This document shows positions 5,211-17,644 of a DNA stretch of 60,944 nucleotides, in pieces. Source of the stretch: Nonomuraea lactucae (lineage in GTDB: Bacteria > Actinomycetota > Actinomycetes > Streptosporangiales > Streptosporangiaceae); the NCBI RefSeq assembly GCF_003313395.1, contig NZ_QNFZ01001068.1, forward strand, positions 1 to 60,944, given 5' to 3'. Below the pieces are notes generated by a model. The model saw only the letters and a program-made list of their open reading frames with translations, was not told the origin of the DNA and searched no databases. Numbering within the stretch: the first letter of the stretch is position 1; every line of letters begins with the position of its first letter. The position numbers were made by a program, and so were the translations under genes.

Positions 5211-5714
5211 ATGGCCCGCGCGGACGACGCCTGGAAGGCGCTTTCGCTGGTCATAGACCTGATCAAGCACGCCGAGACCAAGGCGGGACTGACGCTGGCC
5301 GCCTGCGGTGCCGTCGGCGGAGTGATGTACACGATGGTCAGGAGCGTGCCGCAGCCGAGCGCGTGGTTCGGGATCGCCGCCGCGGCCTGCGCCCTCCTGG
5401 TGATCGGCGGTGCCTGCTGCGCCGGGCTGGCGCTGGTCCCCCGCCTTCGCGGCGGTCCCGTACCCGCCAACCTCTTGTATTACCGCCACATCGCCGCGCA
5501 CTATCTCGCCGACTCCGGCGCCTATGCGGGTGAGCTGGGCACACTGCTGAAGAACCCTGACGCGCTTGTCGCCTCCATCGCCGATCAGGTGTGGTCCAAC
5601 TCCCGGGTCGCCCGCCAGAAGTACCACTGGGCCGGCCTGGCCATCAACGCGCTGCTCCTGGCCCTGGCGGCCCTCGCGCTCACCGCTGCCATCGGCGTGT
5701 TCCAGAGCCCCTGA
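5211..5714 (+). CDS. DUF5706 (Pycsar effector-like) membrane protein
   Basis: The 167-residue protein begins with a short amphipathic segment containing HAETKAGLTLAA, which is typical of the DUF5706 family. It has two adjacent hydrophobic segments (about residues 24-42 and 53-78), a soluble middle and a third membrane segment at the C-terminus. DUF5706 includes the PycTM effectors of Pycsar anti-phage systems, where cyclic pyrimidine nucleotides trigger membrane damage. That is family knowledge, and activity here is inferred. The stop overlaps the start of the downstream TPR-CHAT gene (TGATG), so the two are translationally coupled. An in-frame GTG at 5154 would add 19 residues that do not look like the family. 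Neither candidate start has a strong ribosome site. Confidence 0.8.
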   Translation: MARADDAWKALSLVIDLIKHAETKAGLTLAACGAVGGVMYTMVRSVPQPSAWFGIAAAACALLVIGGACCAGLALVPRLRGGPVPANLLYYRHIAAHYLADSGAYAGELGTLLKNPDALVASIADQVWSNSRVARQKYHWAGLAINALLLALAALALTAAIGVFQSP

Positions 5715-8323
5715 TGGACGGTGCTGACCTCGCCCGCGTCGACGCCACGCTGTCGCGTGTGGTCGCCCTGATCGACGCACATCAGCTCGACTCCGCGGAA
5801 CGCCTGCTCAAGCCGCTGATGCAGGATTCGCCCTCCCTTCCTCCCGACCGGCGGACACGGGTCCTGCTGGAATGGGGCTGGCTTCATGGCGCCACGCAAC
5901 GCTACGTACCCGCTCGCGAGGCTCTGGCCGAAGCCGTCGCGGTGGCGGAGTCGTTGCGGTCTTGGAGACTTCTGTGCGAAGCGCTACGCGAATCGGGCAC
6001 GGTGGCTCGCTACGAAGGTGAGTTCCAGGCCGCGGACCGGTTCTTCGAGCGTTCCGAACAGGTGGCCAGGGACGAGGGGCACGACCTGGAGCTCGGCCAG
6101 GCGCTGTTTCAGCGAGGCACGGTCGCGCATCACGTCGGAGAGTTCGTCAAGGCCCGCCGGCTCCTCCAGGAGGCTGGCCGCGCCGCCGAACGCTGCCCGC
6201 CGAGCGAGGCGGCCGTCCAGCTCCTGGCCGACGTCCGCCGTGAATGTGCGGTGTCGGCGAGGCTGGTGCGCGATTTCGACACCGCGCGTGAGCTGCTCGT
6301 CCAGTCACTCGACAGCTACCGGAGCATCGGCCGCCGTGTCGGCGCGGCCAACGCCCAGCGGGAACTCGGCGCGGTGCTCGAACAGGTCGGCAACGAGCGG
6401 GAGGCGCGGCGGTACTTCACCGAGGCCTTCACCGGCTACATGCGCGCGGGCCGCCGTATGGGCGCCGCCCAGGTGGCCCGCCGCCTGGGATACCTCGATC
6501 TGCTCGCCGCGGTCGGTGACGCGGCGGCGGCACGGCGGGCCCGGCGCAGATTCACCCAGGCGCTTCGCCTCGGCGGCGGCGAGCCGGTGAACCGGGTCCT
6601 GAGCACCCTTTACCTCGGCAAGCTCGCACGGCTCGAAGCCGATCTCGACGCTGCGGAAGAGCTGCTGTACGAGACCGTGCAGCAGTACTCCGGCATGGAG
6701 GCCGGGCAGGGCGTGGCCCGTGGGCTGTCGCAGGTGGCCATGGAGGCGGGGCTGATCGCGCGGGAACGCGGCGATCGGGCCGCCGCCATCGCGCGGTTCC
6801 ACGATGCGCTCGCCGCGCTGCGGGTGGCCGATGATCCAAGCGCCGCCAGCCTCGTCCACTATCACCTCGCGACGGACCTGATCCTGATGGACGAGGTGAA
6901 GCAGGCCACGCATCACGCCGTGGCCGCCTTCTCGCTCAACGAGGCCGCCGGCCGCCGCCTGCTCGATCCGGCCGAACGCCGCTCCTTCTACGAGGCGCAC
7001 CGGGAGACGTACGGGCTGGCCCTGCACTGCGCCGCCCGGTCGGGTGACGGGCGTGCCGCTCTGAGGGTCGCCACCGCCGCGAGATCGGACGCGCTGGCGG
7101 CTTTCGTACGGGCGGGGGCCCGGTTCACCCCGCAACTCCACGAACTGGTCCAGGACATCACGCTGGCGAGCGCCGAACCCGGGCAGCAGGCCGAGGACCG
7201 GCTGCGTGATCTCTACGGACGTCTGGAGCACGAGACCTCGCGCCAGATGCGGCGGACCGTCGAAGCCGACACTGACCTCGATGAGATGATCGCCAGTCTG
7301 CCACGCGGCGGGCACGCCCTGCTACTGGACGTTCTGGAGGAGGACGACACCTTCTGCAACAGGATCTGGCTGTCTCCCGACGGCGTCCCGCACGTCGACG
7401 AGGTGATCCTGCCGATGGGCGTGCGACGGTTCCTGGACGCCTACCACCAGGCGCGGGAGGAGGCCGCGTGGCGGCCCCAGCGGGACGACCTCGCGGCGCT
7501 CGGTCACACGATCGTCCCGGACGGGCTGGCCGAGGCGCTGGCGGCAGGCGCGAACCCGCCGCTCGTCATAGGGACCGGGAGCGTCCTGGGCCCGGTGCCC
7601 CTCGCGGCCGTGATGATCGAGGGCAGATACCTTGCCGAACAGGCGCAACTCGCCGTGGTGCCCTCATTGGCACTGTGGCCGGCCCTGCGGTCGCGCGGCC
7701 ATCGGCCGGGCCGGGGCACGCTGGCGTACTTCGATTCCAACGTGCCCGGCTGGCGGAGGGAGAACGCCGCGCTGCAAGCCACGCTCGCGCCGGTCGACCT
7801 CGCCGGTGCCGACGAGGTGCGCGGCATGCTCGCGGACGCCTCTGCGTACGCGGCCGTGGTCATCAGCGCTCACGGCGCCTCGCCCGAGCAGGAGCAGGAC
7901 GGTGTCGGGCGGCATCCGGGGCTCGCCCAGGCTCTCGAACTCACGCCGGACGACCTGCTGACGGCTGCGGAACTGCTGGGCTGCAGACTTCCGGACGCCT
8001 TCATCACCGCGTCGTGCTGGTCGGGGCGGTTGGCCGTACGGGCCGCGATCGAGCCTCTCGGCCTGCCGACGGCCGCGCTGCTCGCCGGTGCGCGCTGGGT
8101 GCTGGCTGGCACTGTGGACATCGGCAGCACATCGACCGCGACCCTGCTGGCCGGCTTCTATCGGGAGCTGGCGGACGGTATGACACCCGCCGCGGCCCTG
8201 CAGCGGGCGCAGACCGCGTACCTGAGTCAGCGGCCGGATACGGCACCAGGCACCTGGGCAGGGCTGACGATCATCGGTGACGGTTTCGTCCCTCTGCGCT
8301 TCGCCGGAAGCGGGCCGGAATGA
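5714..8323 (+). CDS. TPR-CHAT caspase-like protease (copy 1)
   Basis: The 869-residue protein has TPR-like helical repeats from the N-terminus to about residue 460, then a linker and a C-terminal CHAT domain (about 535-865). The caspase-type dyad is visible as His720 in VVISAHGAS and Cys768 in FITASCWSG. CHAT proteases (separase/caspase fold) act as effectors or activators in bacterial conflict systems, including TPR-CHAT of type III-E CRISPR and the CATRA and VMAP networks. The start ATG overlaps the stop of the DUF5706 gene. Its 3' end faces a second TPR-CHAT gene 15 bases away. The repeats presumably sense or bind a partner. The substrate is unknown. Confidence 0.88.
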   Translation: MDGADLARVDATLSRVVALIDAHQLDSAERLLKPLMQDSPSLPPDRRTRVLLEWGWLHGATQRYVPAREALAEAVAVAESLRSWRLLCEALRESGTVARYEGEFQAADRFFERSEQVARDEGHDLELGQALFQRGTVAHHVGEFVKARRLLQEAGRAAERCPPSEAAVQLLADVRRECAVSARLVRDFDTARELLVQSLDSYRSIGRRVGAANAQRELGAVLEQVGNEREARRYFTEAFTGYMRAGRRMGAAQVARRLGYLDLLAAVGDAAAARRARRRFTQALRLGGGEPVNRVLSTLYLGKLARLEADLDAAEELLYETVQQYSGMEAGQGVARGLSQVAMEAGLIARERGDRAAAIARFHDALAALRVADDPSAASLVHYHLATDLILMDEVKQATHHAVAAFSLNEAAGRRLLDPAERRSFYEAHRETYGLALHCAARSGDGRAALRVATAARSDALAAFVRAGARFTPQLHELVQDITLASAEPGQQAEDRLRDLYGRLEHETSRQMRRTVEADTDLDEMIASLPRGGHALLLDVLEEDDTFCNRIWLSPDGVPHVDEVILPMGVRRFLDAYHQAREEAAWRPQRDDLAALGHTIVPDGLAEALAAGANPPLVIGTGSVLGPVPLAAVMIEGRYLAEQAQLAVVPSLALWPALRSRGHRPGRGTLAYFDSNVPGWRRENAALQATLAPVDLAGADEVRGMLADASAYAAVVISAHGASPEQEQDGVGRHPGLAQALELTPDDLLTAAELLGCRLPDAFITASCWSGRLAVRAAIEPLGLPTAALLAGARWVLAGTVDIGSTSTATLLAGFYRELADGMTPAAALQRAQTAYLSQRPDTAPGTWAGLTIIGDGFVPLRFAGSGPE

Positions 8324-8338
8324 CCGGCGTCCGGTGGG

Positions 8339-11300
8339 TCAGGCGCCGCTGTGGATGTGGGATGCCCAGGCGGACGGATGCAGCGGGAGAAGCTCGCGGA
8401 CGCTCCGGACGGCGCTGTGCAGAGCCACCGCGCCGTCGATCGTGCCGCGCCAGTCCAGCCCCGCGTACACGAGTTTGGCGAAGCGCAGCGCGATACGGTC
8501 GCTGACCGGCCAGAGCGTGCTGATCACGTGCCGGTATCCGATGAGCTGGAACGCCGAGGCCAGGTGGATCGCCTCGTCGGTGAGCCTGATGCCAGGACGC
8601 GCGGATGAGCACGCCGACAGGTAGGCCAGCTCGGCCCGCCGAAGGTCGAGCCTGCCAACGTCGACCACGGTCAACGGTCGCGAGAGATGGTCGTGGACGA
8701 GAAGCCTGCCCGCCGACGGATCCGTGGGTTCGTCGCAGGCGTGGCAGGCGAAGTGGGCCCAGTGGGCCTCGGCCAGCGCCGTGAGCACGGACTCGTGGGT
8801 GGCTTGGGGACCGGTCATGATGGCGGCGTCGCCGGGGACGAGGTCGCGAACGGCGGCGGCCTCGCCAAAGGCTCCGGGGATGGGCGAGGCGTCAGGCGTC
8901 GTGGGCATGGCCACCAGCAGCCCCTGAGGATCGGGCGAGCCGTCCTCGGGTTCCGGGAAACGGGCGCGGCGCGCGTGGGCGAGCGCCCGTACGGTCGGCG
9001 TGTAGGAGGAGACGGCCCGGTCCGGTACGGCGGCGTGTCCGGGCTCCCGGTGACGTCCTGCGGCGTGCAGCGGCAGGTAGGCCAGCGGGCCGGTGGGGCA
9101 CCACCACAGGCGAGGCCATGGGCCGCCCGGCCGTGGCGGGCCGTTGATGGCGAGCACGCGCATGACCGGCGCGGCGATCCTGTCCCAGAGCCAGGCGAGC
9201 GTGTCGAGGATGACGTCCTCCTCGGCCGGTTCGGCGTCCACCGCGGACAAGAACGCCGTCGCCTTGCTCTTGACATCCTCGGCCGACAGCCGCGGCAGGG
9301 ACAGGACCCGCAGACCGGAGCCGGTCAGGATCAGCGCGTCGGCGCGATGGTCGCTGACGTTGACCACCACCACGGGGCCGTGCCTCGCTTCCGCACGCAT
9401 CTGGTCGAACGTCATCGGCAACAGGAATCCCGCCATGCCGGGCAGCCGGCGGATCCGCTCCAGACTCTCCTCCCAGGCCACGGCCAGTGACCGGCGGCGG
9501 GCCGCGGCTCCTGGCAGGTCGACGACGTCGGTCTCCGAGGCGTTGAGCAAGGCGCGCAGCCGGATCAGGTCGTCGGCGTCGTCCGGGTGGCGGCGGCGGA
9601 GTTCGGCGAGCCCGCCCCGCATGGCCAGATCCTCGTTCAGCATCAAGCCCCGGCCTTCCTCCATCAGGAGCAGGGCACGGCGAGGATCGCCCGCGTCGAG
9701 GGCCGCGCTCGCGGCCTCTGACGGTAGCCCCTCGGCCTCTCCGATGCCGTGCTCGCGGTCGGTGCGCGCCCGAGAACGCGCGGCCGTCCTCGGTAGCAGC
9801 GCCACTGCGGCGGCGTACCGGTGGAGGGCGTCGCGCCTGTCGTCCATCGCCGTCGCCAGGCGGGCGCCCGCCCGGTAGGCGTTGATGCGCACGGCCGGGG
9901 GGATGCTCGCGGAGGCGGCGGCCTCGTGGAACACGGCGCGGGCTCGCACGCCGACGGCGGGCTCCATCGTGGCGTGGAAGACGCGGGCCAAGGTACGGCC
10001 CATGTCGATGAGCCGATGGGAGCGCCGGGAATGGTCCTGCGGGGTCTCGTCCATGGCGCCGTCGTAGGTGTTCACGGCCTCTTCGAGTACCGAGGGGTCG
10101 CCTGTCCGCTCGTACTCCGTTAGCAACGCGGAGCCGAGGTTGACGAGGTTGGCGCCCAGATCTTCATATCCGCGCGGTGTCGCCGCCACCGCATGACGAG
10201 CCCGGTCCAGCGCCTCTTTCCGCATACGCGCGTCGCCCGTTGCCTCGGCGCCTCGCTGCAGGGTGGTGCAGAGCAGGGCAAAGGCGTCGGCGTGGTCGGG
10301 ATGATCCGCTGGGGTCACGTGGAAGGCGCGGCGGCTCACCGCGATCGCCTCGACCAGGTCGGCGTCGCGAAGCTCTCGTTCGTAGCGCGTCAGGAGCGCG
10401 CCGCCCAGGTTGACGAGGCGGACCGCCAGCTTGCGATGATCGGCTGGAGAGGCCTCGACGGCCAGGCGGGCCACTTTGACCGCCTCGTGCAGGTCCTCGC
10501 TGTCGCCTCGCTGCTGGAAGAGGCGGCGAAGCGCCCCGCTGAGGCCCGTCGCGATCATCGCGGCGGCCGGATGGCCGGGATCCGCCCTTTCCAGCGCGGT
10601 ACGGTGCGCCTCCACCGCCTGATCCAGCAGGTCGATGTCTCCGGTCTGCTCGTAGGCGTGGCGGAGCGTCAGGCCGAGATTGTGCTGGCGTCCCGGCCAG
10701 TACGGGTCGTCCTGCGCCAGCAGGTCGACGGCGTCACGGCCGGCCGCCACCGACTCGCGCAGCGCGCTCATGTCGCCCGTCATGGAGAAGAGCACGCGAA
10801 GGGCCAGCCCGACGTTGGACAACAGGCCGGCCTCGTCAGAACCGCCGGCCGGCACCAGGGCGACCCCTTCGCGGCCTGCGGCCGCGGCGAGCCGCAACTG
10901 TTCCGGATCGCCCCGCTCACCGCCCAGGTAGCGCAGTGACACGCAGAGGTTCATCAGCATGACGCCACGGTCATGACCCGTGCTGCGGTCCGCGGCGAGC
11001 CGGTGCGCCCGCGCCGCCTCTTCGAGCGCTTGCACGTCCCTGACCCGTTCGTAGAGACGCTGGAGGGCGTTGGCGTAGTTGGCGAGCCGGCGGGCGTACC
11101 AGGGGTGGTCCTCCGGCGTCGCCTCCACCGCCGAGTGCCCGGCGCGTACGGCTTCGTGCAGCAGGTCGACTCGCTCGGTGATCTCGGAGAGGCGGCGGGC
11201 CGCCACGCTCAGGCGCGATAAGCTGTGCGCGGCGTGGGCGGGTGTGGGGGCGGCCGCTATCGCCGCCCGCAGCGACTCGATCGCTGCTCTCAGATCGCTC

Positions 11301-11371
11301 GCGTCCCCGGTCCGCAGAGCGTGCAGAAGAACCCTCAGGGCCTCGGCTTCGAGCGCGTCCGCCTGATTCAC
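8339..11371 (-). CDS. TPR-CHAT caspase-like protease (copy 2)
   Basis: The 1010-residue protein has a long array of TPR-like repeats (about residues 20-600), each opening with patterns such as LANYANALQRLYER or LVNLGSALLTEYERTGD. A CHAT domain follows at about 700-1005. The catalytic pair is His877 in AHFACHACDEP and Cys921 in LAYLSACSSAR, the classical spacing and context for CHAT. The gene lies 38 bases downstream of the macro-cyclase gene on the same strand and is convergent with CHAT copy 1. The two CHAT proteins differ in repeat number and in sequence around the dyad, so they are not a recent duplication. This suggests two distinct roles, for example activator and executioner, although that is inference. 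Confidence 0.88.
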   Translation of the reverse strand: MNQADALEAEALRVLLHALRTGDASDLRAAIESLRAAIAAAPTPAHAAHSLSRLSVAARRLSEITERVDLLHEAVRAGHSAVEATPEDHPWYARRLANYANALQRLYERVRDVQALEEAARAHRLAADRSTGHDRGVMLMNLCVSLRYLGGERGDPEQLRLAAAAGREGVALVPAGGSDEAGLLSNVGLALRVLFSMTGDMSALRESVAAGRDAVDLLAQDDPYWPGRQHNLGLTLRHAYEQTGDIDLLDQAVEAHRTALERADPGHPAAAMIATGLSGALRRLFQQRGDSEDLHEAVKVARLAVEASPADHRKLAVRLVNLGGALLTRYERELRDADLVEAIAVSRRAFHVTPADHPDHADAFALLCTTLQRGAEATGDARMRKEALDRARHAVAATPRGYEDLGANLVNLGSALLTEYERTGDPSVLEEAVNTYDGAMDETPQDHSRRSHRLIDMGRTLARVFHATMEPAVGVRARAVFHEAAASASIPPAVRINAYRAGARLATAMDDRRDALHRYAAAVALLPRTAARSRARTDREHGIGEAEGLPSEAASAALDAGDPRRALLLMEEGRGLMLNEDLAMRGGLAELRRRHPDDADDLIRLRALLNASETDVVDLPGAAARRRSLAVAWEESLERIRRLPGMAGFLLPMTFDQMRAEARHGPVVVVNVSDHRADALILTGSGLRVLSLPRLSAEDVKSKATAFLSAVDAEPAEEDVILDTLAWLWDRIAAPVMRVLAINGPPRPGGPWPRLWWCPTGPLAYLPLHAAGRHREPGHAAVPDRAVSSYTPTVRALAHARRARFPEPEDGSPDPQGLLVAMPTTPDASPIPGAFGEAAAVRDLVPGDAAIMTGPQATHESVLTALAEAHWAHFACHACDEPTDPSAGRLLVHDHLSRPLTVVDVGRLDLRRAELAYLSACSSARPGIRLTDEAIHLASAFQLIGYRHVISTLWPVSDRIALRFAKLVYAGLDWRGTIDGAVALHSAVRSVRELLPLHPSAWASHIHSGA

Positions 11372-11409
11372 CGTTGCAGCGTACGAAACACCGATACGGC
11401 GCGGGATCG

Positions 11410-12843
11410 TCAGTCCACGCTGGTGTCTGAATCGTCACGAGGCGGCGAGGTCCAGAGCCATGCGTTCTCCGCGAACTCCTTCACCGCCACGTGAACCGGA
11501 CGGAAGTCGTCCGCGGAGAGTTCCGAGTACCCCGGTCTGATCACGTCTTTGTACATCTGCTCGGAGACGAGAACCACCAGTTCCGCGTCCGGAGCTTCGA
11601 CCGCCGCCGTCCGCAGCGGGGCGCTGTCGACCATGCGGCTGATGTCGACGATCACGGAGCCGGAGAAGCCGGCGGCACCGGGGCCCGCGAGTCCGGCGCC
11701 CACCGCCATGCGCAGCCGGATCTTGTCCGCCTCGTTCCGGTTGTCCTCGGCGAGCCTGCTCGTGAACGAGCGGATGAGGGTGGACAGGGCCGTCGTCGGA
11801 TCGACGTCGTCCGGCAGGAAGGCGGTGAACCCGTCGCCCGCCCATTGATGCTCGACCGAGCCGACGGCCGTGTCACAGTCCCGCAGCACGCCGGACACTA
11901 AGTCCCTTAGCCGTTCCTGGACCCGTTCCTGGGCGGGTCCGGGCCGGGCACCGTAACCGATGACGTCCACCACGAAGCCCATCCGAAGCCGCTTGCGCAC
12001 CGGCGCCCTCGTACGCGCCGCCGTGAAGCCGCTCTCGGGGACGATGACGGGCAGTTCCGCGGGCGGGGCGACGAGCGCGGTCAGCGCTCTGGACGCGGCG
12101 AAGACCCGGGCGCACGCCGCGAGCTCCCTGTCGGTGTAGGCCAGCAGGTAGACGATCGAGACATGGGTGCCCGGCGTGGTACGGAAGTGGTCGACGGCCG
12201 CGCCGAGCATCATCGCGATGGTGGGTTCCAGCTCCCCGCCGCCTTGCCCGACGCCCAGCAAGGGAAACAGGACGCTCGCCGGCGGCGGTCGTCCCCCCAT
12301 CCGGTCGACTTCAGCCAGGGCGTTCGTCACGCAGGTGCCGATCTCGGGGACCTGCCGGAACCCCGAGCCCGGTTCGCCCTGGACGGAGGCGACGTGCACG
12401 ATCGCGCGTATTCCGATGCGCCGCATGTCGCCCGGTCCCGTGACAACCGCGGTGGCGGCGGGCAGCGGCAGGCGACCGCTCGTCTTCCTGGTCAGTTCCT
12501 CGGTGATGACGTCGCGGACGACTCGCCCGGCGGCGTCGCGTTCCGCGCCCTCGTATCGGATGATGCTGGAGATCGAGAACTCTTCGACCCGCGCCATCTT
12601 CATGCCGGTGTTCTCGGAGTTCACCCATACCTCGGCGCAGCGGACACGCCTGATGTCGCCGCACACGATGCCGACGTACCGGCTGGGCGGCTCCTTGACG
12701 GCACGTACCCGGAAATACCGGATCTCCATGGAATGGAGCGGACGTCCGCTCCCGCGCACCAGCCGGAGGCGGATCGCCCACAGGGCGGCGACCGCCAGGA
12801 CGGCGGAGCCGACGGCGACGAGGACCCACTGCGAGCCGGTCAT
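11410..12843 (-). CDS. Membrane-anchored macro domain-class III cyclase-like fusion
   Basis: The 477-residue protein starts with one membrane helix (about residues 6-27). A macro (ADP-ribose-binding) fold follows at about 55-260, recognisable from GDIRRVRCAEVWVNSENTG, VTGPGDMRRIGIRAIVHVAS and VLFPLLGVGQGG. The C-terminal half (about 285-470) resembles class III nucleotidyl cyclases. D293 in FVVDVIGYG and D337 in WAGDGFTAF match the two metal-binding aspartates, and their 44-residue spacing is the same as in animal adenylyl cyclases. An SRM motif could supply the transition-state arginine. The lysine that precedes GD in adenylyl cyclases is Gln here, so the base specificity is open. The cognate relationship to the DUF5706 effector is inferred from the Pycsar precedent. 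The gene sits between CATRA-PNP (9-base gap) and TPR-CHAT copy 2. Confidence 0.72.
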   Translation of the reverse strand: MTGSQWVLVAVGSAVLAVAALWAIRLRLVRGSGRPLHSMEIRYFRVRAVKEPPSRYVGIVCGDIRRVRCAEVWVNSENTGMKMARVEEFSISSIIRYEGAERDAAGRVVRDVITEELTRKTSGRLPLPAATAVVTGPGDMRRIGIRAIVHVASVQGEPGSGFRQVPEIGTCVTNALAEVDRMGGRPPPASVLFPLLGVGQGGGELEPTIAMMLGAAVDHFRTTPGTHVSIVYLLAYTDRELAACARVFAASRALTALVAPPAELPVIVPESGFTAARTRAPVRKRLRMGFVVDVIGYGARPGPAQERVQERLRDLVSGVLRDCDTAVGSVEHQWAGDGFTAFLPDDVDPTTALSTLIRSFTSRLAEDNRNEADKIRLRMAVGAGLAGPGAAGFSGSVIVDISRMVDSAPLRTAAVEAPDAELVVLVSEQMYKDVIRPGYSELSADDFRPVHVAVKEFAENAWLWTSPPRDDSDTSVD

Positions 12844-12852
12844 GCCCGGCGC

Positions 12853-14883
12853 CTATCGTCGTACGCGCCGGGGTTGGCCACCGCGCGGTGCGAGAGGTGG
12901 GCACTGGCCCAGCAGGGCCCGGGAATAGGCGGCGGCCGCCGCGGATGCGTAGTTTCGCCAGGTGCGGCCGGTACGTTCGTCGCCGTAGTCGCTGATGCCC
13001 CGGACGACCAGCCATTCCAGTCCGTTGAAGAAGCTCGCGCGTCCCACGCCCTTGCCCTCCATCTCCATGGCCCGCAGGTCATGTTCCCGGGCGAGCCGGT
13101 CACGGGTCTTGGCATTGCGCAGCGCCCGGTCGGCGCTGCCGATGTAGCCCTGGTGCACCTTCGGCAGGCCCGGCCGGTGCCCGCTGGCCGCCAGGTCGGG
13201 ATGGGCGGCCGGCTCCTCGTCGTCGTCCGACAGGTAGAGCAGGTCCGTGGAGGCCGGTGGCCGGCCGAAACCGGCGACCGCGGTGACCCGGCCCAGGATG
13301 TCCTCCCATGGTCGCCGTCCGGCCATCTCGTCGGCCTCCAGGAACGCGGTCTGCCGCGTGAGCAGCGACGACGGCCTGGGGAAGGGCTGTCTCGGCTCGG
13401 CGCCCGCCGGCCGGTCCACGACATGGTCGTAGTCCACGATCCCCCAGCTCGACACCACGATGTCGCCCAGCCGGACGTGTTTGTCAGGCCGCCTCAGGTC
13501 CGGGACGCCGGCCGCGATGCCGGCCACGAGGACGTAGCCCACCGACCGGAAGCTGCGCGAAAGATTGGCGCACCCGTCGGCCGCCGCATCGTTGGCGGTG
13601 TCGCCTAGCAGCGTGACGACCACATGGTGCGGACGCTCGCGGTCGGCGCTGGGCATCGTCCCGGTGAAGTAGTGAGCCCGGTCGTCCTCGATGTTCCACC
13701 GGCTCTCGCCGTCGAGCAGGACCCGTACGGCCGCGAGTTCCTCCGGCATCGCCGTGATGATCCCGATCGTCGGAGCGTCCTCTGGGGGGCCGCCGTCGTG
13801 TCGTCCGGCTGTCCGCGCGGCGACCTCGCTCACCGAACGCGCCCCTTCCACGGCCCCCTCCAAGTACACGATCTCGTCCTTCAGCCGGCGCCTGAACCAG
13901 TCGGCCAGGTCCAGATCGCTCCGTACGGAACCGTCGGGTGCGATCCCCCGCCGCGCGGAACCCAGCGCCGACCCGGCGTTGTCCGCGGCGATCTCCGCGG
14001 TGTGCTCCAGGTTCTTCAGCACCGAGACCAGGTGGCCCGACCGCGCCATGTCGAGCCGCAGCCCGGCCAGCCGGTCGGCCAGTCGCGCCCCCGCACGGCC
14101 GGCGAGCTGCAGCACCTCGTCGCTGCCCGCCTGCAGTGAGGCCCGCAGGGTCGCGGCGGAGGGGTAGGTCTTGTGCGTCCTCAGCTCGTACCTGAGCTTG
14201 GCGATGTGCATGAGGTAGCGAGCCAGCACAGGCATCTCTTCTGGATTGTGGAGCGACCAGGTCCAGTCGCTGAGCGCGTCGTCCGACCGCGGAGGCGCGG
14301 CCACGATGAGCGCCCTGGCCGACCGCTCGGGATCGGTGTCGGAGAACTCCCAGGCCACCAGGCCCGCCGGGAGCGTCAGCCCCAGGGGCCGCCACCCGCT
14401 GCCTGGCGCGTGGCGTACCGGGCACTCGGTGAAGAGGGCGCGTGCCGCGTCAGGATGCCGGGGCTCGGTCACCTTGGCGAGGTAGAGGTGTGCCGTGCCG
14501 AGGAACGCCTTGGACGGCTGGAGCACCTGTGCGATGAGCCGGCCGTGCTCCTCCCAGCGGGGAGGTTCCGCACGGGGACCACGCGGAGCGGCGGACAGCA
14601 ACGCCAGGTTCAGGACGTCGTGTTCGCGGCGTAGGAACATCTGCCGGCCGCCGTCCACGCTCTCCTGCACGGCGAGCGCCTTCGACTCCGGTCCGGATCG
14701 GAGGTCGGCGGGCAGGCCGTCGGGCAGATGGGAGTCGGGGGTCGGACGGTCCGTGCCGAGCAGGTCGCGCCCGCGCTGCCACATCTCGCGGACGAGCCCG
14801 ACCGACCTTTCAGCGCGGGGGCCTTCGAGCAGCACGTAGGCGTGTGCGACCAGCTCCTGCTCCACCACACGGATCTGCACCAT
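12853..14883 (-). CDS. CATRA-like protein fused to nucleoside phosphorylase (PNP) domain
   Basis: The start ATG at 14883 has a GGAG site five bases upstream, and a longer frame to 15237 runs through the divergent small gene. Residues 1 to about 365 match my recollection of the CATRA (caspase and TPR repeat-associated) region, beginning VEQELVAHAYVLLEG and containing a long helical middle. Residues 370-676 form a PNP/MTA-SAH nucleosidase-like domain, with GIITAMPEELAAV, VAGIAAGVPD, a purine-site Glu in RAMEMEGKGV and the catalytic Asp in VVRGISDYGD. PNP domains in other defence systems, such as Detocs, destroy ATP, so a nucleotide-depleting effector role is plausible but inferred. It is the first gene of a CATRA-cyclase-CHAT operon. 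Confidence 0.75.
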   Translation of the reverse strand: MVQIRVVEQELVAHAYVLLEGPRAERSVGLVREMWQRGRDLLGTDRPTPDSHLPDGLPADLRSGPESKALAVQESVDGGRQMFLRREHDVLNLALLSAAPRGPRAEPPRWEEHGRLIAQVLQPSKAFLGTAHLYLAKVTEPRHPDAARALFTECPVRHAPGSGWRPLGLTLPAGLVAWEFSDTDPERSARALIVAAPPRSDDALSDWTWSLHNPEEMPVLARYLMHIAKLRYELRTHKTYPSAATLRASLQAGSDEVLQLAGRAGARLADRLAGLRLDMARSGHLVSVLKNLEHTAEIAADNAGSALGSARRGIAPDGSVRSDLDLADWFRRRLKDEIVYLEGAVEGARSVSEVAARTAGRHDGGPPEDAPTIGIITAMPEELAAVRVLLDGESRWNIEDDRAHYFTGTMPSADRERPHHVVVTLLGDTANDAAADGCANLSRSFRSVGYVLVAGIAAGVPDLRRPDKHVRLGDIVVSSWGIVDYDHVVDRPAGAEPRQPFPRPSSLLTRQTAFLEADEMAGRRPWEDILGRVTAVAGFGRPPASTDLLYLSDDDEEPAAHPDLAASGHRPGLPKVHQGYIGSADRALRNAKTRDRLAREHDLRAMEMEGKGVGRASFFNGLEWLVVRGISDYGDERTGRTWRNYASAAAAAYSRALLGQCPPLAPRGGQPRRVRR

Positions 14884-14957
14884 GCCGGCTCCGCTTCGCC
14901 CTGGCGTCCCACCAATCCTAGTGCCTGGCTCGCCGCGACTCCGGGCCGCGAGGCAAC

Positions 14958-14963
14958 TAGAGT
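14958..14963 (+). promoter_or_regulatory. Putative -10 element of a leaderless transcript
   Basis: TAGAGT fits the TANNNT pattern and ends seven bases before the ATG at 14971, with no ribosome site between. This is the arrangement of actinobacterial leaderless genes. The divergent CATRA-PNP gene starts 88 bases away, so both promoters share this short spacer. Confidence 0.4.
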
Positions 14964-14970
14964 TGAGCGC

Positions 14971-15270
14971 ATGACGCGGGATCCGCTGCACGCCGCCGCA
15001 GCCGCCGACGTGCTGGAGGATCTCCTCCAGTGGACGTTGCCGGCGCACCGATGGCGTGACGTGGACCAGATCCTCATCAGGATGATCGAGGCTCTTCCTG
15101 ACGCACCACCCGCGCTGACGGCCGAACTCGAGCTCATCAGCCCTCGGCGTGTCCGCCGCATAGGGCACAAGCGTGAAGAGCCGGTGGATACGCCTCCGCC
15201 GCCCCTCGTGTTGGAACGCGCGAATCAGCTGATCCACGACTATTCACCCGAATCCGAGGAGTCCACATGA
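14971..15270 (+). CDS. Small CATRA-associated protein
   Basis: The 99-residue protein has no recognisable enzyme motif. The N-terminal half is helical and hydrophobic in register (VLEDLLQWTLPAHRWRDV, then VDQILIRMIEALPDA), and the C-terminal third is Arg/Pro rich. It is divergent from, and adjacent to, the CATRA-PNP gene. Small ORFs of this size accompany CATRA genes and are annotated as CATRA system-associated proteins, as I recall, so I assign it by context. It may be an adaptor or inhibitor that keeps the system off. The chosen ATG follows a TANNNT element directly, and a longer in-frame ORF to 14728 lies antisense to the CATRA gene and is disregarded. Confidence 0.62.
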   Translation: MTRDPLHAAAAADVLEDLLQWTLPAHRWRDVDQILIRMIEALPDAPPALTAELELISPRRVRRIGHKREEPVDTPPPPLVLERANQLIHDYSPESEEST

Positions 15271-15464: not shown

Positions 15465-16958
15465 ATGAGACCGTGGGCAGAGATCAGGGAGACGCACTCC
15501 TCCGTGGTGATCTTTCTCGGTGATCACGCGTACAAGATCAAGAAGCCGGTGAACCTGGCCTTCCTCGACTTCACCACCAGGGAAGCCCGCCAGAGGGTCT
15601 GCCGGGATGAGGTGGAGCTCAACCGGCGGCTGGCGCCCGATGTCTACGAAGGGGTCGCCGACGTGCTCGGGCCTGACGGCCGGCCCTGCGAGCATCTCGT
15701 CGTCATGCGGCGCATGCCCGAGGAGCGCCGCCTGGCCACGATGGTTCGGTCGGGCAAGCCGGTGGAGGGGTACGTGCGGCAGACCGCCCGGATGCTCGCG
15801 AGCATGCACGGCAGCGCCCGTCGCAGCCCGGAGATCGACAGGCAGGGTACGCAGGAGGCGCTGCGGACCCGCTGGACGGCGAGCTTCGAGCAGGTCCGCG
15901 CGTTGCCGGAGCCGGCAGTCAACGCCGACACGGTGTGCGAGATCGAGCGACTCACGTTGCGTTTCCTCGACGGCCGGGAGCGCCTGTTCGCCACCCGGAT
16001 CACCGAGGGGCGGGTCGTCGAGGGGCACGGAGACCTGATGGCCGAGGACATCTTCTGCCTGGACGACGGGCCGCGAATCCTGGACTGCCTGGAGTTCGAC
16101 GAACGGCTCCGTTCACTCGACGGGCTGGACGACGCGGCCTTCCTGGCCATGGACCTGGAACGGCTGGGCGCGCCCCGACTGGCGGAGTCGTTCCTCCACC
16201 GGTACGCCGAGTTCTCCGGCGACCCCTCGCCGCCCTCGCTGTGGCACCACTATGTCGCCTACCGGGCCTTCGTCCGCGCCAAGGTGGCCTGCCTACGGCA
16301 CTGGCAGGGAAGTCCGGCCGCGGCGTGGGAGGCGCGCGACCTGGCCGGGCTCACGCTGCGCCACCTGCAGGCCGGCGCCGTCACCCTGGTCCTTGTCGGC
16401 GGGTTGCCGGGGACGGGCAAGTCGACCGTGGCCGCCGCCATCGGCGAACGTCTCAGCTACCCGATCCTGAACAGCGACCGCATCCGCAAGGAACTCGCCT
16501 GCCTCGCACCGGAACAGCCCGCGCCCGCGCCGTTCGGCGAAGGCATCTACAGCCGGGAGTGGACCCGGCGTACGTATCACGAACTGCTGGCCCGAGCCGA
16601 AACTCTGCTCCGTCACGGCGAACCGGTCGTGCTCGACGCCTCCTGGACAGACGCCGCGTCCCGAGCGGATGCCAGGGATGTCGCCCAGCGGACGTCCAGC
16701 GATGTCGTGGAACTGCGCTGCATCGCTCCGCGACAAGTCAGCACAGAACGCCTGGCTCGCCGCACCGGCGGCGTCTCGGACGCCGACCAGGCGATCGCCG
16801 CGGCGATGGCGGCGAGCACGGGGCCCTGGCCGGAGGCGGCCGAGATCGACACCAGCAGCGGCCCGGATCAGGCTCTCGATCGGGCGCTCGGCGCGATCCA
16901 CGCACGCTGGGCCACCGCGCCGTGGCGGTTCCGGCGCTCGCAGATGGAACCCGGCTGA
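15465..16958 (+). CDS. Bifunctional APH-like/AAA kinase-like protein (Rv2004c type)
   Basis: The 497-residue protein has an aminoglycoside-phosphotransferase-like N-terminal half with HGDLMAEDIF and ILDCLEFDERLR, the expected catalytic and metal loops. The C-terminal half is a P-loop kinase resembling gluconate or zeta-toxin-like AAA_33 proteins, with the Walker A sequence GLPGTGKST at about residue 313. Proteins with this layout are common in actinobacterial dormancy islands, and the M. tuberculosis Rv2004c gene belongs to the DosR regulon. The true substrate is not known. The GGAGG-like site eight bases before ATG supports the start. It forms the border between the conflict locus and the dormancy island. 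Confidence 0.85.
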   Translation: MRPWAEIRETHSSVVIFLGDHAYKIKKPVNLAFLDFTTREARQRVCRDEVELNRRLAPDVYEGVADVLGPDGRPCEHLVVMRRMPEERRLATMVRSGKPVEGYVRQTARMLASMHGSARRSPEIDRQGTQEALRTRWTASFEQVRALPEPAVNADTVCEIERLTLRFLDGRERLFATRITEGRVVEGHGDLMAEDIFCLDDGPRILDCLEFDERLRSLDGLDDAAFLAMDLERLGAPRLAESFLHRYAEFSGDPSPPSLWHHYVAYRAFVRAKVACLRHWQGSPAAAWEARDLAGLTLRHLQAGAVTLVLVGGLPGTGKSTVAAAIGERLSYPILNSDRIRKELACLAPEQPAPAPFGEGIYSREWTRRTYHELLARAETLLRHGEPVVLDASWTDAASRADARDVAQRTSSDVVELRCIAPRQVSTERLARRTGGVSDADQAIAAAMAASTGPWPEAAEIDTSSGPDQALDRALGAIHARWATAPWRFRRSQMEPG

Positions 16959-17377: not shown

Positions 17378-17644
17378 ATGCAAGCCAAGAGGTGGACCGT
17401 CCAGATCTTCATCAGCGAGGACGACGGCGACGACCGCACGCTGGCGCGCGCGGTCCTGTACGCGCGGGGCAGCAAGTGGCACGAGAGCGTGGGGCTCGCC
17501 AGGCGCAACCCCGGCGACCGCCCGGTGCCGGAGATCGGCGACGAGCTGGCCGCCGGCCGGGCCCTGATGGACCTGGCCGACAAGCTCATCGGTGACGCCG
17601 CCGACGACGTCGCGCAATTGGGAGGACCCGTAGAAGCGCGTTGA
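17378..17644 (+). CDS. DUF1876 dormancy-associated protein (Rv1738/Rv2632c family)
   Basis: The 88-residue protein contains the family pattern WTVQIFISEDDGDDRTLARA, then a Gly-containing linker and a C-terminal helix (ALMDLADKLIGDAADDV). M. tuberculosis Rv1738 is a DosR-regulon protein with a fold related to ribosome hibernation factors, so a role in translational shutdown is possible. It is preceded by DosR-like boxes and followed by a strong hairpin terminator, so it is probably monocistronic. Confidence 0.85.
   Translation: MQAKRWTVQIFISEDDGDDRTLARAVLYARGSKWHESVGLARRNPGDRPVPEIGDELAAGRALMDLADKLIGDAADDVAQLGGPVEAR

Follow-up and report, generated by a model that had tools for sequence, protein, structure and literature searches.

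Positions 5211-15270 of a 60,944-nucleotide contig of Nonomuraea lactucae (NZ_QNFZ01001068.1, assembly GCF_003313395.1; this whole stretch is called the window below) hold six genes that together form a real and elaborate variant of the CATRA ternary conflict system, conserved in parts. Since the core of CATRA-N/C, CATASP and a TPR-CHAT protease is already a known predicted type, we speak of an elaborate variant and not of a new kind of system. We put at about 0.5 the probability that the locus is a CATRA-type conflict system which would stop an infected cell from growing or kill it, through a relay that leads from a PNP nucleosidase over a membrane-anchored macro-cyclase protein to the membrane effector PycTM. 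The most valuable new observations are the partnership of PNP with the macro domain and, inside CATRA loci, the partnership of a cyclase with PycTM.

Parts of the locus and their company in relatives

Sequence comparison establishes the parts of the locus and their co-assembly. A preliminary description of the same DNA had named a DUF5706 Pycsar effector, two CHAT proteases, a CATRA protein fused to a PNP nucleosidase, a membrane macro-cyclase and a small companion protein, and had arranged them by a TGATG overlap and short gaps into two facing operons plus one divergent gene. Gene models, coordinates and Pfam agree with this placement. The two CHAT genes lie tail to tail with a gap of 15 bp, and the minus strand reads CATRA-PNP, macro-cyclase with its transmembrane (TM) helix and CHAT2, with gaps of 9 bp after CATRA-PNP and 38 bp before CHAT2. 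The Pycsar effector matches the PycTM family (PF18967, 1.9e-16) as well as the PADLOC PycTM model (6.2e-30), and the small companion is the named family CATASP (PF20271, 6.9e-18); its gene was not called by the gene caller, and its start was chosen by reading frame. CHAT1 carries the Pfam domains CHAT (1e-24) and TPR_12 (1.1e-12), and CHAT2 carries CHAT (1.2e-43). In CATRA-PNP we found CATRA-N (5.1e-44), CATRA-C (6.6e-25) and PNP_UDP_1 (PF01048, 2.6e-11), the last of which was also matched by the PADLOC 'PN-superfamily' effector model (1.2e-14).

Phylum-wide sampling of CATRA was too sparse (3 of 296 genomes), so two genome families were scanned instead, with CATRA-N alone and blind to the other genes. 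Among the 342 genomes of the window's family, which include Actinomadura litoris and Acrocarpospora macrocephala, 43 had a CATRA-N match, 38 of them above the Pfam cut-off. The second family, that of Dactylosporangium sucinum and presumably the Micromonosporaceae, gave a match in 64 of 354 genomes. The 123 stretches of at most 20 kb around above-cut-off matches and the window made 124 loci, and our own profile found CATRA in 123 of these. Outside the 123 stand L286, where that profile was negative, five places below the Pfam cut-off in the window's family, L107 and L108 from the phylum-wide scan, and L109-L120, which were fetched for macro or cyclase matches.

The genes are kept together in relatives, a point on which the preliminary description had let its proposal of one assembly depend. 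By our own profiles and within these stretches, 102 of the 123 CATRA loci contain CATASP and 85 contain one or more CHATs; 11 have a CATRA-PNP fusion and 28 a fusion of CATRA to a cyclase domain. In A. litoris (L079 = L121) CATASP, CATRA-PNP, TM-macro-cyclase and a CHAT form a quartet in one block. Its CATRA-PNP is 52% identical to that of the window over 674 aa and its TM-macro-cyclase 60% over 445 aa, and its TPR-CHAT resembles CHAT2 in the CHAT domain only (28% identity). The CHAT1 and macro genes, discussed below, keep company with CATRA (8/8) and CATRA-PNP (8/11 against 0/112). When we looked for all six genes in other genomes, as had been proposed, partial sets recurred, but the complete set was found in the window only among the 123 CATRA loci. 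In five loci (L130, L145, L151, L152 and L156) CATASP, CATRA and PNP are fused in a single polypeptide, which suggests that CATASP and CATRA are in direct contact.

Both CHAT proteases had been described as having intact His-Cys dyads, and indeed His and Cys are kept in all 111 aligned CHAT domains, those of the two window proteins among them. The nearest relative of CHAT1 among the loci compared lies in a CATRA-PNP locus of Paractinoplanes polyasparticus (52% identity over 841 aa). At E<=1e-30, CHAT1 orthologues occupy eight places in the 354 Micromonosporaceae genomes, with 50-54% identity over nearly the full length, and there may be more than eight because the search scored the two best candidates per genome. 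All eight lie 326-1765 bp from a CATRA-N match. CHAT2 is 35-37% identical over 880-980 aa to its six best matches among the CHATs of other CATRA loci. We also noted a broken remnant of a CHAT1-type gene directly upstream of CATASP and CATRA-cyclase (L068:7758-8570). Contig C775 of the window's own genome (L119:4623-10402) carries a further member of the macro family (353 aa), divergent from the gene of a 1388-aa CHAT protein.

The PNP nucleosidase and its macro partner

As judged from alignment, the PNP of CATRA-PNP keeps catalytic-type residues. Each of the 11 sequences has the second Glu of 'PEE' (column 12), both residues of 'ME' and the Asp in 'SDY', which we take to be the catalytic positions of 5'-methylthioadenosine/S-adenosylhomocysteine (MTA/SAH) nucleosidases. 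The best PDB sequence matches of the domain are MTA/SAH nucleosidases as well (1zos, 5e-9).

A macro gene of the window's type was present in 8 of the 11 CATRA-PNP loci and in none of 112 other CATRA loci (Fisher p 1.6e-10, a test which here and below assumes independent loci and overstates their independence, as the loci share descent). With the window left out, the counts were 7/10 and 0/112 (p 1.8e-9), the 112 omitting L286 and the CATRA-PNP loci. Seen from the other side, a genome scan gave 109 macro loci; of the best 80, nine have CATRA-PNP, and seven of these nine coincide with places of the CATRA set. Together with the window this gives ten CATRA-PNP loci with a macro protein, and in nine of them the macro protein carries a second nucleotide enzyme. 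This enzyme is a cyclase in five loci (the window, L121, L145, L151 and L152, by our own profile), a TIR in two (L137 and L148) and a PNP in two (L130 and L156); nothing further was recognised on the macro protein of L131. Judged by these domain matches, what stays constant among the ten loci is the macro domain, while the nucleotide enzyme varies.

A PNP-superfamily frame was also present in 12 of 38 actinobacterial macro loci, picked by hand, in whose stretches our own profile detected no CATRA (the stretches of L136, L153 and L199 are shorter than 9 kb), against 0 of 113 control loci (p 1.4e-8), the control being CATRA loci without CATRA-PNP, L286 included and searched with the same profile, and not random genome stretches. 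All 12 PNPs pass the Pfam cut-off (L122, L123, L124, L125, L126, L128, L132, L139, L150, L163, L175 and L176), and in L123 and L128 the PNP is fused to AAA/STAND-type ATPase regions. One strand of L122:6521-12089 (Kibdelosporangium banguiense) carries, in this order, an NB-ARC-TPR protein with a cyclase-like N-terminus (own profile), a macro gene and a PNP gene; this may be the same cassette in a STAND-gated form. None of 33 non-actinobacterial macro loci had a PNP frame, so the PNP-macro link is seen in actinobacteria only.

Near macro genes without a TM helix, the commonest family was NUDIX (12 of 83 neighbour proteins, a count that leaves out 37 listed neighbours of TM-macro genes). Some close neighbours of TM-macro genes were ordinary or unrelated, such as an antiporter/complex I-type protein and a lipid A acyltransferase. 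In L182:1201-3021 and similar loci of other phyla, a NUDIX gene immediately precedes the gene of a macro protein whose N-terminal domain is Rossmann-like, and DRHyd/TIR-like by eye. These NUDIX-macro loci look like a separate, widespread system linked to ADP-ribose.

PNP, TIR and NUDIX proteins make or use ribosyl-phosphate or ADP-ribose compounds. Since the macro family accompanies one or another of them across contexts, and this chemistry is common to all three, the macro domain more likely reads the glycosyl-cleavage product of PNP, in the manner of TM-macro ThsA, than the product of the cyclase, which the preliminary description had suggested as its ligand. A bolder reading, less likely than not in our view, is that PNP and macro form a signal-receiver pair of their own, Thoeris-like, with a PNP-superfamily enzyme replacing TIR. 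Such a pair would serve CATRA/CHAT loci, STAND-type loci (NB-ARC and others) and loci where it stands alone, and its macro part would plug in cyclase, TIR, PNP or membrane outputs. The window would then be a two-step relay, with the PNP product going to the macro domain and a cyclic nucleotide to PycTM.

The macro-cyclase protein and PycTM

By Pfam, the membrane macro-cyclase was weaker than it had been described, and the assignment was rescued by a macro profile and a predicted cyclase fold. The Pfam Macro match of the window protein reached 18.1 bits and stayed below the cut-off of 22 bits. A profile of 42 members of the macro family, the window's included, was run against solved proteins (hmmsearch) and matched macroH2A1.1 (3.9e-9) and PARP14 (4.5e-9). 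The macro model has a pLDDT of 94.6, and the 50 best Foldseek matches listed for it include macro domains of the macroH2A, Af1521 and MacroD types.

We dropped the attempt to call the cyclase by sequence alone. Pfam gave no cyclase family for the window protein, nor for any of 25 cyclase-like segments that include the window's, and the best PDB sequence match of the segment, an adenylate cyclase, was weak (E 0.14). Its identity is accepted because the predicted structure confidently has a class III cyclase fold. The model has a pLDDT of 93.6, and all 50 PDB matches listed by Foldseek are nucleotidyl cyclases, with the Ma1120 adenylyl cyclase at the top (E 3.4e-8, probability 1.00). All 25 aligned sequences share one Arg and two Asp, the latter in register with the metal Asp; presumably these are the metal ligands and the catalytic Arg of class III cyclases.

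Inside CATRA loci, PycTM goes with a cyclase domain. Our own profile found PycTM in 7 of the 123 loci, with a cyclase domain in the stretch in all seven (called in L216 and L218 by our own profile alone) against 29 of the 116 others (p 1.2e-4; without the window, p 4e-4). Pfam confirmed PycTM in six of the seven (the window, L221, L078, L213, L218 and L253). On a strict count, from which L216 and L218 were dropped, PycTM occurs with a cyclase in 5/5 loci (p 0.0014), or in 4/4 when the window is left out as well (p 0.005). In L078, L213 and L221 PycTM is the next gene after CATRA-cyclase, on the same strand; in L253 it is divergent. The PycTM of the window is 61% identical over 137 aa to the gene that follows CATRA-cyclase in L078. 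The union of Pycsar and CATRA parts had been thought unusual; CATRA-cyclase beside PycTM recurs in relatives, so it is not unique. In two further places (L216:15820-19899 and L218:15783-19874) a PycTM-like gene lies beyond CATRA and a CHAT1 orthologue, about 3 kb from a separate cyclase-domain frame.

The features of the locus are collected in the table. In the flank of the locus, the window encodes an AAA_33 kinase-like protein (15465-16958) and an Rv2632c-like protein (17378-17644).

Table. Features of the CATRA locus in the window
Feature	Position	Strand	Length (aa)	Description
PycTM	5211..5714	+	167	DUF5706/PF18967 membrane effector, 2-3 hydrophobic helices (hydropathy)
TGATG overlap	5712..5716	+		stop/start overlap of PycTM and CHAT1, read from sequence
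CHAT1	5714..8323	+	869	TPR-CHAT protease, His-Cys dyad present
CHAT2	8339..11371	-	1010	repeat-CHAT protease, His-Cys dyad present
Macro-cyclase	11410..12843	-	477	membrane-anchored fusion: TM helix at residues 6-24 (hydropathy), macro ~34-252, cyclase ~284-467
Cyclase domain	11449..11988	-		class III nucleotidyl-cyclase-like, segment modelled
Macro domain	12064..12753	-		segment modelled
CATRA-PNP	12853..14883	-	676	fusion of CATRA-N, CATRA-C and PNP nucleosidase
CATASP	14971..15270	+		CATRA-associated small protein (PF20271), divergent from CATRA-PNP

Proposed relay, its alternatives and related systems

The signal flow, which the wiring seen in relatives supports, is inferred, and so are the ATP-destroying arm and the phage protection of the preliminary description. 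The TPR-CHAT proteases would be held inactive until an invader is sensed; when active, they would cut, and thereby release, CATRA-PNP or its partner CATASP. The freed PNP would break the glycosidic bond of an adenine nucleotide. The membrane protein's macro domain would bind the ribosyl-phosphate or ADP-ribose-like product, and this binding would turn on the attached cyclase. The cyclic nucleotide would open the PycTM membrane effector, and nucleotide loss, membrane damage and proteolysis would act jointly. If this is true, one bacterial device links caspase-like proteases to nucleotide depletion and to signalling by cyclic nucleotides, and PNP enzymes, so far described as (d)ATP-degrading effectors, would also be makers of signals. 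The PNP-macro pair is a small unit of one enzyme and one binding domain, which could reveal the ligand of an orphan macro family and serve as an experimental entry into CATRA systems.

Several observations weigh against this relay, which is weakest on three counts: cyclase residues are altered, A. litoris lacks a PycTM match, and CATRA-cyclase loci show no macro gene. In the alignment of the cyclase family a Gln takes the position of the class III Lys, which we take to be the purine binder, and by reading the same alignment we found no counterpart of the transition-state Asn. The cyclase may for this reason work slowly, prefer another base or do no more than bind nucleotides. In the genome of A. 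litoris PycTM had no match, though the macro-cyclase is present, so PycTM is not an obligatory receiver. Among the 28 loci with a cyclase on CATRA itself no macro was seen, and the macro domain is therefore not needed there; it is also absent from the ~20-kb stretch in 3 of the 11 CATRA-PNP loci (L240, L242 and L246). Within their stretches, 38 of the 123 CATRA loci have no CHAT and 21 no CATASP. PycTM is mostly found away from CATRA, and among the places listed in 340 genomes of the family CATRA adjoins it, as judged by eye, in the window and G070 only. The PycTM of L216 was found by our own profile only and is negative in Pfam.

The usual absence of CATRA beside PycTM would suit an island of independent systems, in which a CATRA-PNP system and a Pycsar-like pair are neighbours by chance and share no signalling. 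The convergent operons, with cyclase and PycTM in different ones, and the restriction of the six-gene set to the window point the same way. However, PycTM overlaps CHAT1, whose orthologues lie by CATRA in 8 of 8 places. Inside CATRA loci it occurs only together with a cyclase domain, also on the strict count, and in three of them it comes right after CATRA-cyclase and on the same strand, and we consider a chance neighbourhood unlikely. The altered residues and the A. litoris locus could also mean that the cyclase is catalytically dead and binds nucleotide only. Proteolysis and PNP would then do the work, and the macro-cyclase would be a membrane scaffold or a brake. Inactive cyclase domains are described, in the accessible part of the source, in vWA-component effectors of related ternary systems. 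Against such a dead domain stand the two Asp and the Arg kept in every sequence of the alignment, and if no cyclic nucleotide were made, the association with PycTM would be difficult to account for; this explanation, too, seems improbable to us.

The same parts might also serve outside immunity, as a switch by which a filamentous actinobacterium kills its cells during development or stress. The literature that we found holds no phage test of a CATRA system, and the flanking genes, kinase-like and Rv2632c-like, look ordinary. Such a switch is very unlikely in our view: CATRA-N is patchy in the family (above the cut-off in 38 of 342 genomes), and effector domains are strongly swapped, as in conflict systems.

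We compared the locus, read as a CATRA-type conflict system with a relay from PNP over the macro-cyclase to PycTM, with known systems. The CATRA ternary conflict system goes by that name in eLife 70394, where Kaur et al. 2020 and Burroughs and Aravind 2020 are cited; Kaur et al. 2020 itself does not use the word CATRA. Among the papers listed by full-text literature searches there was no other on CATRA or CATASP, which counts for little because such searches miss most subscription papers, and in the same literature no phage test or bench study of a CATRA system was found. Judged by titles and abstract starts, no papers on this assembly or on PNP-macro signalling were found.

CHAT is listed for Borvo and CRISPR III-E in the accessible part of PMC10952713. 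Csx29 of CRISPR type III-E has the TPR-CHAT protease architecture in common with the window; its match to CHAT2 reaches only E 0.0029, and no Cas family was found in the nine window proteins scanned. The Cap17-type PNP effectors (Detocs, CBASS), which degrade (d)ATP according to the accessible text of PMC10952713, likewise use a PF01048 nucleosidase as a conflict effector. In contrast to them, the PNP of the window is fused to CATRA and has close relatives in 10 further CATRA loci. The TIR/PNP-associating SLOG PF18178, a feature given in the same portion of that paper, was absent from the Pfam scan of the window proteins.

Thoeris with a TM-macro ThsA (Shi et al. 2024, PMC11204291) also combines a TM helix, a macro domain and an enzyme that cleaves glycosidic bonds, and, as stated in the part of that paper available to us, ADPR and IAD are ligands of this ThsA, which clusters its TM helices. 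In the window, however, the partner is a PNP and not a TIR, and a cyclase is added. We rejected membership in Thoeris: Pfam found no TIR (ThsB) in the nine window proteins scanned, the PADLOC ThsA model did not match the window protein and matched 1 of the 42 macro family members (6.7e-4), and no ThsA-named entry is among the 47 macro sequence matches or the 50 fold matches listed.

With Pycsar (PycC cyclase plus PycTM or PycTIR) the locus shares a PycTM-family effector, which forms a membrane-spanning pore according to the accessible part of PMC11224242, and a class III cyclase fold with both metal Asp. Unlike in Pycsar, the cyclase is fused to a macro domain, and it is not adjacent to PycTM but lies in the opposite operon, about 5.7 kb away; for the macro-cyclase protein PADLOC gave no match at E<=1.

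The closest likeness is to the named core of CHAT, CATRA and CATASP with its variable 'effector position' (eLife 70394). As this core is named, CHAT and CATRA are not normally separate, contrary to what had been assumed. The preliminary description thus keeps its domain list, its operon layout and its single assembly, and gives way on the separateness of the parts and on the macro ligand. As in the CATRA system, the window has CATRA, CATASP and TPR-CHAT adjacent and an enzyme at the C-terminal position of CATRA; the window differs in having, besides these, a membrane macro-cyclase, PycTM and a second CHAT, which belongs to a different lineage.

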